64,000 nt of DNA, from contig NC_009976.1 of NCBI RefSeq assembly GCF_000018585.1, positions 553,982 to 617,981 of the forward strand, given 5' to 3'. The stretch comes from Prochlorococcus marinus str. MIT 9211 (lineage in GTDB: Bacteria > Cyanobacteriota > Cyanobacteriia > PCC-6307 > Cyanobiaceae). Shown piece by piece: positions 19,576-29,608 of the stretch. The position numbers and the translations under genes are program-made. The notes under the pieces are model-generated. The model was not told where the DNA came from and did not search any database. It was given only the letters and a program-made list of their open reading frames with translations. Each line of letters starts with the position of its first letter. Position 1 is the first letter of the stretch.

Positions 19576-19761
19576 TTCTCTGGTTGATAGAGTTTGATTG
19601 ATTCATGATTTCTTCTGAGATCTTTTCTAGCGCAATAAACTTGTAAAATTTAGTAGAAAGCTAAGAATACCGCTTTTGTTAGTAGAGCCTGAAAGAATTG
19701 TTCCTTGGAATGTAACTTTGTAGAAGATATGCAATGCTTTTTTAGTCTACAAAGGTTTTTT

Positions 19762-20106
19762 ATGGACAAAAAAGGGGCAAAAGGCTATTGGATTAACACT
19801 GCAACAGTTGTTAATCCTGAATTATTTGCTGATTATGTAGAGCAGGTAGTCCCTTGGCTTGCTTCTGTTGAAGGGACTATTTTTGCTAAAGATACCGATC
19901 CTCACGGCAAAGAAGGGACCGAAGGTGCAAACTTTGCCGTGATTTGCGAGTTTCCTTCTATGAGGGCAGCTATTGATGCTTATGAATCTGCTGAATACAA
20001 AGAGATAGGGAAGATCCGTAAAGCTGCTACAGGGAATGGAACTTTCACAATTATCGAAGGTATGGATGAAGCTCAAAGATTAAGAAGAGCAATGGGTAAA
20101 AAATAA
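19762..20106 (+). CDS. DUF1330-like protein, paralog of 2170-2469
   Basis: 114 residues from the ATG at 19762, chosen because an aaagg sequence lies 7 bases upstream and the family begins near GYWI; a longer frame to 19705 exists. GYWINTATVVNPELFADYVE, NFAVICEFPS and AYESAEYKEIGKIRKAA match the paralog. It carries an extra basic C-terminus ([11 protein letters not shown]). Its stop overlaps the next ATG (TAATG). Confidence 0.7.
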   Translation: MDKKGAKGYWINTATVVNPELFADYVEQVVPWLASVEGTIFAKDTDPHGKEGTEGANFAVICEFPSMRAAIDAYESAEYKEIGKIRKAATGNGTFTIIEGMDEAQRLRRAMGKK

Positions 20107-22668: not shown

Positions 22669-23022
22669 TTAGCCATTGGCTGAGCTCCTTCTTACGACCC
22701 TTCTTCCATTAGTGACTTCAGAAGATGGTTCTTGCTTGCCCTTTGACAAATCTTCTTTGTGCTCGTTAGGAGGATCGTCTTCTTCCATTTCTGCGCAAAC
22801 CCCCACCACAATTGCTGCTTCGACTTGATTAGGCAGATCCCCAATTGTTATGAGCGCTTTTAAGACAAGTTGCAGGCGAGGGTCTTTGCCAAGCTCCGGG
22901 CGCAGTTTCTTGACTGTTTGCCAAAGCTCTTTTGTGACTTCTTTGAGCAGCTCTTTATCAGTAGCCAAAGCAATTCTTATGTTTATGATTGTTAAACCTA
23001 ACAGCCGATCAGTTACAAGCAA
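22669..23022 (-). CDS. conserved hypothetical protein
   Basis: Helical protein: IRIALATDKELLKEVTKELW, KKLRPELGKDPRLQLVLKAL, GDLPNQVEAAIVVGVCAEME, then an acidic and basic polar tail. No ATG lies near the N-terminal end of the conserved part; the start is probably a TTG (23022 or further in). It resembles a small cyanobacterial family, but I cannot name it. Confidence 0.55.
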   Translation of the reverse strand: MLVTDRLLGLTIINIRIALATDKELLKEVTKELWQTVKKLRPELGKDPRLQLVLKALITIGDLPNQVEAAIVVGVCAEMEEDDPPNEHKEDLSKGKQEPSSEVTNGRRVVRRSSANG

Positions 23023-23130: not shown

Positions 23131-24137
23131 TTAATGCTTTTCATTAACCCAGATGTATCGGCCACTTTCTTCTTCTCGCTTAACAGCTATGCAATTACTT
23201 GCAACATGCCAGAGAGCGTTCAGGATAGGTGTTGGGTTATATAGATAAGCCTTTGGAAAAGATTTTTTGATTGCCAAAGTTGCTTCTTTCGCGTGGTAAT
23301 GAGGTACACCTGGAGCAATATGGTGGATCACGTGGGTAGACCCTATTTTGTGATGAAGAAAATCAAGAATCAATCCATAGGGCCTGTCAACTGATAGAAA
23401 TGCACCGCGCATAAATGAAAAATCTGAGTCGGCTAGATGGGGCACGTCAGTATCAGTGTGATGAAGCCAGGTATAAATTACGAGCCAAATATTCACCACT
23501 AACAAAGGGGCCACATACAATGCTATTACTTGCCAGCTAGCAAGTAAGCAGGCCAACCGAAAATAAGGTGAAGTATTAACTGAAGCACTCCAAAGGTGTT
23601 TTTCCCAATTGTTTTAGCAATGGCTAGTTCGTTATCGCCACCTTCATTCTCACTAATACTATTTCCTCCAACAACTAAAGGTACATGGGTTTCACCCTTA
23701 CTTATATGGTTGGTGAATCGATGATGAATGGCATGGGACCTTTGCCAAGAGAAGTAGGGAACAAGTAAAAAAGAATGCAATATGTACCCAATCATTGTTT
23801 GAAGCTTCCTATCTGCAGAGAAGGCTCCATGTCCACATTCATGCGCAAGTACCCAAAAGCCCATTGCGCATGTACCTGAAATAAGGTCGTAGATGAACCA
23901 TGCAGGTGCCAACTTTCCTGTAAGCGGAATAGTTAGACCAACCAAAATAATTACTGCTTGAATAGCTAATGATTGAATAAGGTAATAAATGGATCTGCTT
24001 GTTTTACATGAGAAGCATTTCTTTGGGATTACAGCCCTAGCTTGAGAATTAGTGGGAATGTCTTTCATTTCTAGAGCAATTGCTTGCCCTCTTAAGCCAG
24101 AGAATTGGATATTTCTTGTGAATCTGTTGTTCGTCAA
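23131..24137 (-). pseudogene. desA: fatty acid desaturase (delta-12/omega-3 type), disrupted by internal deletion
   Basis: Two overlapping frames encode the two halves of one membrane desaturase. 24137-23526 carries the first two His boxes (HECGHGAFSADRKL, SHAIHHRFTNH) and stops after GWPAYLLAGK. 23556-23131 carries WLVIYTWLHHTDTDVPH and the third box STHVIHH. In the family a segment of very roughly 50-70 residues lies between GWPAYL and the LVVNIWLVIYTW region; it is missing here and the frame changes at the join. So a deletion has probably inactivated the enzyme, which introduces double bonds into membrane lipids. The fold cannot be rescued by a simple frameshift. Confidence 0.8.
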
Positions 24138-24367: not shown

Positions 24368-24541
24368 ATGAATCACTACTCAGAAGAAAAACTAACAGAT
24401 ATTTGTGAAGATGCTTTCGTGAAAGTTAAGGAAGCTTGCATGAGGCTCCAAGAAAAAACAGGTTGTTCCAATGATGTGGTTGTTAAAATGCTGAATAATG
24501 TTTCTGAATTTTATATATCTCAAAGTGAATCAACCGATTAG
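24368..24541 (+). CDS. 57-aa protein, paralog of 20106-20276
   Basis: Shares the V-K-x-x-EAC-x-x-LQE-x-TGC core with the 20106 protein; otherwise acidic and helical (SEEKLTDICEDA). An extra cysteine lies before the core. Function unknown. Confidence 0.6.
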   Translation: MNHYSEEKLTDICEDAFVKVKEACMRLQEKTGCSNDVVVKMLNNVSEFYISQSESTD

Positions 24542-25201: not shown

Positions 25202-25402
25202 TTAGTTTCCTTTTCTATACTCTACAGTGCCATCTCTTTTTCTTAATGGCTTTGCATAAAGGACTCTAAGTAATCCTTTAGTATCCATATTTCTAGTGGT
25301 CAGAAAAAATGTTAATAAAAAGGTCAAGGATATTATGCCTAGCAATACCCTTGCAAATGGATCTAGACCCATTTCAGAGAAAGTGATAGATAATAATTTC
25401 AT
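25202..25402 (-). CDS. 66-aa membrane protein
   Basis: ATG frame with one membrane segment (FARVLLGIISLTFLLTFFLT) and a basic tail (RVLYAKPLRKRDGTVEYRKG). Function unknown. Confidence 0.55.
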   Translation of the reverse strand: MKLLSITFSEMGLDPFARVLLGIISLTFLLTFFLTTRNMDTKGLLRVLYAKPLRKRDGTVEYRKGN

Positions 25403-28924: not shown

Positions 28925-29608
28925 TTAAGAAGCAATGTCTTTCTCTTCTTGGGGAGGGTCAGCAAGCATCTCAGATTGATTTAGATCCTCAACAGTATTA
29001 ACTGCTTGCTCAGAAGAAGGAACTTCGTTCTCTTCTTGGGGAGGGTCAGCAAGCATCTCAGATTGATTTAGATCCTCAACAGTATTAACTGCTTGCTCAG
29101 AAGAAGGAACTTCGTTCTCTTCTTGGGGAGGGTCAGCAAGCATCTCAGATTGATTTAGATCCTCAACAGTATTAACTGCTTGCTCAGAAGAAGGAACTTC
29201 GTTCTCTTCTTGGGGAGGGTCAGCAAGCATCTCAGATTGATTTAGATCCTCAACAGTATTAACTGCTTGCTCAGAAGAAGGAACTTCGTTCTCTTCTTGG
29301 GGAGGGTCAGCAAGCATCTCAGATTGATTTAGATCCTCAACAGTATTAACTGCTTGCTCAGAAGAAGTAGCTTCTTTCTCTTCTTGAGAAGAATCAGACG
29401 TTTCCCCCAAGTTCTCTTGTTGTTCATCCTGAACTAGTCCCTTTAAAGAACCTGCTAAGTCTTTAAGGTTATTAAATAGATCCTTCAAGTTCAATCCGAT
29501 TTCTTTCAATATCGATTTTATTTCAGTTGCTTTCTGACCTTTATTTGTGATAAGGACCAAAGTAATGATTCCTGAAACTAGGAGTATAAAAAAAATAAAC
29601 CCAAGCAT
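28925..29608 (-). CDS. membrane-anchored acidic protein with five tandem 29-residue repeats
   Basis: 227 residues. N-terminal anchor (FIFFILLVSGIITLVLI), an amphipathic helix region (residues 25-60, LKDLFNNLKDLAGSLKGL), then five consecutive units from residue 82, each SSEQAVNTVEDLNQSEMLAD plus PPQEENEVP. Units look identical at DNA level except the last. The repeats are acidic and probably disordered. Function unknown; unit number may vary between cells. Confidence 0.75.
   Translation of the reverse strand: MLGFIFFILLVSGIITLVLITNKGQKATEIKSILKEIGLNLKDLFNNLKDLAGSLKGLVQDEQQENLGETSDSSQEEKEATSSEQAVNTVEDLNQSEMLADPPQEENEVPSSEQAVNTVEDLNQSEMLADPPQEENEVPSSEQAVNTVEDLNQSEMLADPPQEENEVPSSEQAVNTVEDLNQSEMLADPPQEENEVPSSEQAVNTVEDLNQSEMLADPPQEEKDIAS
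28928..29365 (-). repeat. five tandem copies of an 87-bp unit
   Basis: In-frame direct repeats inside the gene 28925-29608; copies 1-4 appear identical base for base and copy 5 diverges at its end. Their sameness suggests recent expansion by slippage or recombination. There are no spacers, so this is not a CRISPR array. Confidence 0.9.

Follow-up and report, generated by a model that had tools for sequence, protein, structure and literature searches.

The b-type microsome-like delta-12 acyl-lipid desaturases of marine picocyanobacteria (DesA family), represented by Pro1214 of SS120, were classified in PMC2593844 by phylogeny and by three His boxes with the patterns AHECGH, WxxSHxxHHxxxN and HxxHH. 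SS120 keeps two DesA-type genes according to both that paper and our genome search. For Prochlorococcus marinus MIT 9211 the same study reported in 2008 an N-terminal and a C-terminal partial sequence, possibly belonging to a single gene, and it counted the strain as having only the b-type delta-12 desaturase, the gene being deduced from a draft genome. The two ORFs, P9211_05577 and P9211_05582, are taken there as one gene, and the accessible part of the paper mentions neither a deletion nor a loss of function. Thus, the split itself is already on record in that part of PMC2593844, and what is new here is the recognition of the deletion. No later work treating the MIT 9211 gene as a pseudogene was found in a search that left most subscription papers outside its range, and the word "desaturase" was not found in the main text of PMC3940434. 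As to the role of such enzymes, the accessible part of a temperature study of MIT9301 places desA and desC among stress-response clusters and reports that fatty acid desaturases are upregulated in the cold (PMC10294614). Pseudogenes and gene losses in streamlined Prochlorococcus genomes resemble the present case: there, too, dispensable genes were inactivated recently and are entirely gone from sister lineages, and the locus described below is no different in kind.

The window, a stretch of 64,000 nucleotides, derives from the MIT 9211 genome (one contig, 1,688,963 bases). Its minus strand carries at 24137-23131 a gene for a DesA-like acyl-lipid desaturase (delta-12, microsome type) spread over two frames, the putative delta-12 role following from the way such genes were grouped in print, by phylogeny and His boxes. 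The N-terminal part lies in frame A (23526..24137, minus strand; 203 aa, start codon uncertain, TTG in the window) and includes His boxes 1 and 2, with a PF00487 match at residues 79-145; it ends in GWPAYLLAGK, and its stop codon follows one codon past the junction. The C-terminal part lies in frame B (23131..23529, minus strand) and comprises the helix that follows the gap, VIALYVAPLLVVNIWLVIYTW and the third His box, likewise with a PF00487 match. Read mechanically, frame B is a 141-aa ORF that runs from a TTG at 23556, upstream of the junction, and stays open to 23131. As ORFs the two frames measure 612 and 426 nt and overlap by 31 nt, exactly as given for P9211_05577 and P9211_05582, and they are the same feature. 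The His boxes read HECGH (23843-23829), HAIHH (23735-23721) and HVIHH (23334-23320), and across the two frames all three published patterns are present, as AHECGH, WQRSHAIHHRFTN and HVIHH. Both halves pass the PF00487 (FA_desaturase) profile, with 45.5 and 39.8 bits against a cut-off of 29.7. Pro1214 is orthologous over both halves and has the same three His boxes; the match in genome G012 (1121255-1122085) falls within the coordinates given for it in the table of PMC2593844. Unlike Pro1214, however, the window copy has no single continuous frame that includes the segment between boxes 2 and 3, 57 codons being gone and the frame changed. A promoter and terminator scan yielded nothing beyond what shuffled sequences gave. 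Judged by its sequence, the window copy is a broken member of the DesA type, not a working one.

The deletion junction lies at 23530..23531 (minus strand), where the bases AA stand in place of the 57 codons of intact orthologs. The net loss of 169 nt (171-2) is not a multiple of three and thereby changes the frame. For comparison, 72 relative loci were reduced to 46 unique intact orthologs once duplicate entries for a gene and loci lacking a usable open frame had been taken out; 42 of these are close (60-69% identity to the window copy) and four distant (L118, L119, L124 and L125; about 43-45%). Between the flank LLAG and the part aligned with VIALYV there are 57 residues in all 42 close orthologs and 61 in all four distant ones, so that the segment is kept in 46 of 46 intact genes and the lesion is absent from every one of them. 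The reading put forward in the earlier note, that three His boxes survive while the segment joining boxes 2 and 3 is missing and the frame shifts, is thus borne out by both the sequence and the alignment, as is its statement that intact DesA types carry this segment. The C-terminal part does continue in the other frame as claimed there, although homology resumes at VIALYVAP, slightly 5' of the LVVNIW that was named. Since all 46 orthologs are continuous at the junction site, a conserved split gene was rejected.

With a probability of about 0.83, we take the locus to be a null allele, a pseudogene of recent date, of MIT 9211's b-type microsome-like delta-12 acyl-lipid desaturase. A single net 169-nt deletion has taken out the 57 codons that lie between His boxes 2 and 3 and has put the remainder into another frame. 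The product is expected to be inactive, because frame A stops one codon past the junction and a readthrough product would still be devoid of the predicted transmembrane helix and of NHFWP. The missing segment holds a hydrophobic stretch, which constitutes this predicted helix, and 20 of its 57 positions, NHFWP included, are invariant among the 42 close orthologs. In a structure model of the relative L065, built from five sequences with a mean pLDDT of 45 and used for helix order only, the stretch corresponds to helix 236-263, where confidence is low (block means 33-79); a PDB sequence search with L065 returned nothing at E up to 0.01. Alternatively, the gene could still work, the two frames giving a split or frameshift-fused enzyme that dispenses with the segment. 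Both frames are open and conserved, which, if taken literally, could reflect constraint on the two parts and hence counts against a pseudogene, and the TTG at 23556 could restart frame B. Still, such an enzyme would have to function without a segment that every intact ortholog retains, with its invariant positions and its hydrophobic helix, and we regard it as exceedingly improbable. In the desaturase fold, the loss of one helix would upset the membrane topology. Relocation of the segment within the genome was also rejected: it was not found elsewhere in MIT 9211, where a search with a relative's segment reached a best E of 0.04, versus 1e-21 or better in four genomes with intact genes.

Apart from the junction, the gene is as well preserved as its intact orthologs. 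The window copy keeps 124 of the 125 columns that are invariant in the 42 close orthologs, the sole deviation being N to D at residue 109, and no further stop codons are present outside the junction. Held-out clusters of intact genes showed mean deviations of 0 to 3 per cluster with clustering at 80% identity, and a mean of 6 at a 72% threshold, which yields one very large cluster. In a neutral simulation starting from the observed sequence, with transition bias assumed, the probability of seeing no stop and not more than one new deviation was 0.16 at 1%, 0.04 at 1.5% and 0.01 at 2% substitutions per site. By this simulation, the break is younger than about 1-1.5% neutral substitutions per site. 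It is also much younger than the split of MIT 9211 from its genus mates G001 and G002, with proteins in this trio diverging by 19-35% in four of six cases (GpgS 14-15%, RpoB 1-2%). Likewise, the root-to-tip distance of the window copy in the desaturase tree is not raised (2.39, compared with 2.24-2.63 for other close tips and 1.90 for one basal tip). A lesion absent from orthologs, together with little further decay, is what characterises a recent pseudogene.

The slight decay, in combination with the simulation, means that the break is either young or not natural. On the latter account, the deletion would be absent from the wild genome and would have arisen during cultivation, in a clone made for sequencing (where a membrane protein would harm the host) or during assembly. 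An undecayed remainder is what one expects if the wild gene is intact, and the junction allele is known from one genome only, which also weighs against the pseudogene reading. The 2008 draft record of MIT 9211 presumably stems from the same project as the present sequence. Nevertheless, according to the accessible part of PMC2593844, both ORFs are already in that draft, identical in length and in overlap. Furthermore, the relatives' sequences compared, of which the nearest intact one is about 69% identical to the window copy, showed no long direct repeat at either breakpoint that would favour collapse. Both genus mates are also without the gene, so its loss is natural in this group. A deletion of artificial origin is, on these grounds, unlikely.

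Among the orthologs, a different lesion was noted in L140 (G244:C1:1355000-1357200), a b-type desaturase ortholog whose frame is closed by a TAA following KKAF, some 43 residues short of its relatives' ends. Its coordinates fit AS9601 A9601_15921 in the table of PMC2593844, which lists 1,035 nt for this gene versus 1,167 nt in MIT9301; this gene, too, may be decaying, or its truncation may be tolerated. In a wider family survey, 240 of 300 genomes gave a match (E up to 0.001) to the 203-aa N-terminal half; many of these matches are weak and probably represent paralogs. The phage collection searched with the same half yielded no phage-borne homolog.

The two other genus genomes compared, G001 and G002 (the latter 85% complete), gave no DesA match and contain only two PF00487 proteins each. 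In both, the site is empty and colinear with the window, with the same neighbours on either side: a downstream ORF (22669..23022, minus strand) and a small upstream ORF (24368..24541, plus strand), neither with a Pfam family. The gap between the neighbours' open frames is 287 bp in G001 and 144 bp in G002, versus about 1.3 kb in the window, and when the G001 site was compared by short words with the gene region of the window, only stretches of 12 to 18 bases at chance level (E 0.07 to 0.85) were returned. The branching order within the trio differs between a six-protein tree (4,567 columns), which joins MIT 9211 with G002 at only 51% support, and a three-protein tree, which joins it with G001 at 49%. 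Provided that the gene is ancestral at the site, the simplest account involves two or more independent losses, because the break in the window is recent and the sister lineages have no trace of the gene.

Ancestry at the site is weakly suggested by the neighbourhood of desA in two genomes: a homolog of the window ORF 25202-25402 sits immediately upstream of desA in G057, and 24368-24541 has a homolog in G053 at a distance of about 3.5 kb from desA. Conversely, a copy acquired at a naturally empty site, and broken thereafter, would agree with the empty sites of both genus mates and with several outgroup loci (L105, L107 and L111) where the desA neighbourhood differs from that of the window and lends ancestry no support. 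However, the gene tree offers no recent donor, the window copy forming a long branch (0.33) paired with L021 (0.27), and the homologs in G057 and G053 point to an old neighbourhood. We therefore hold such an acquisition to be very unlikely.

Besides the broken gene, the MIT 9211 genome encodes two intact PF00487 proteins, namely the carotenoid hydroxylase CrtR (1,026 nt), which scores above its NCBIfam cut-off, and a delta-9-type desaturase (945 nt); both lengths agree with the MIT 9211 coordinates in the table of PMC2593844. No second DesA-type gene was found in this genome, and a backup copy, which the earlier note had offered as one explanation of the loss, was rejected. Its description of a recent deletion with little other damage is upheld by the conserved residues, the lack of other stops and the neutral simulation, and its other explanation, a reduced need for lipid unsaturation, is plausible: it fits the empty site of both genus mates, but drift would look alike. 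As a recent pseudogene, the gene would be dispensable and probably heading for the complete deletion seen in these two relatives, and the gene content suggests that the strain would be left with delta-9 (monounsaturating) desaturation only.

On balance, we lean towards the view that two or more losses, one of them very recent, have removed the last delta-12 desaturase within one low-light Prochlorococcus genus, whose cells would then be limited to monounsaturated lipids. If so, the genus would be a natural experiment in the minimum of membrane unsaturation on which a deep-living phototroph can manage; in other respects, the case is routine gene loss in a streamlined genome and ordinary in kind. 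The finding corrects the published count, in which MIT 9211 should now appear as a strain that lacks an intact delta-12 desaturase, and MIT 9211 and SS120, with its two DesA-type genes, form a pair for a simple lipid comparison at low temperature.

Several features of the wider window were also observed. The stretch 17000-38000 contains many small ORFs, several with no Pfam match, and is largely colinear with G001, with many of its proteins just 40-75% identical to their G001 counterparts; the region resembles an island and is old within the genus. At 28925-29608 the window encodes a protein with a repeated unit of about 30 residues (SSEQAVNTVEDLNQSEMLADPPQEENEVP-like), whose G001 counterpart is about 38% identical. 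Finally, the ORFs at 2161-2466 and 19693-20103, of which one is a DUF1330 member, both match one pair of G001 ORFs and so look like paralogs.
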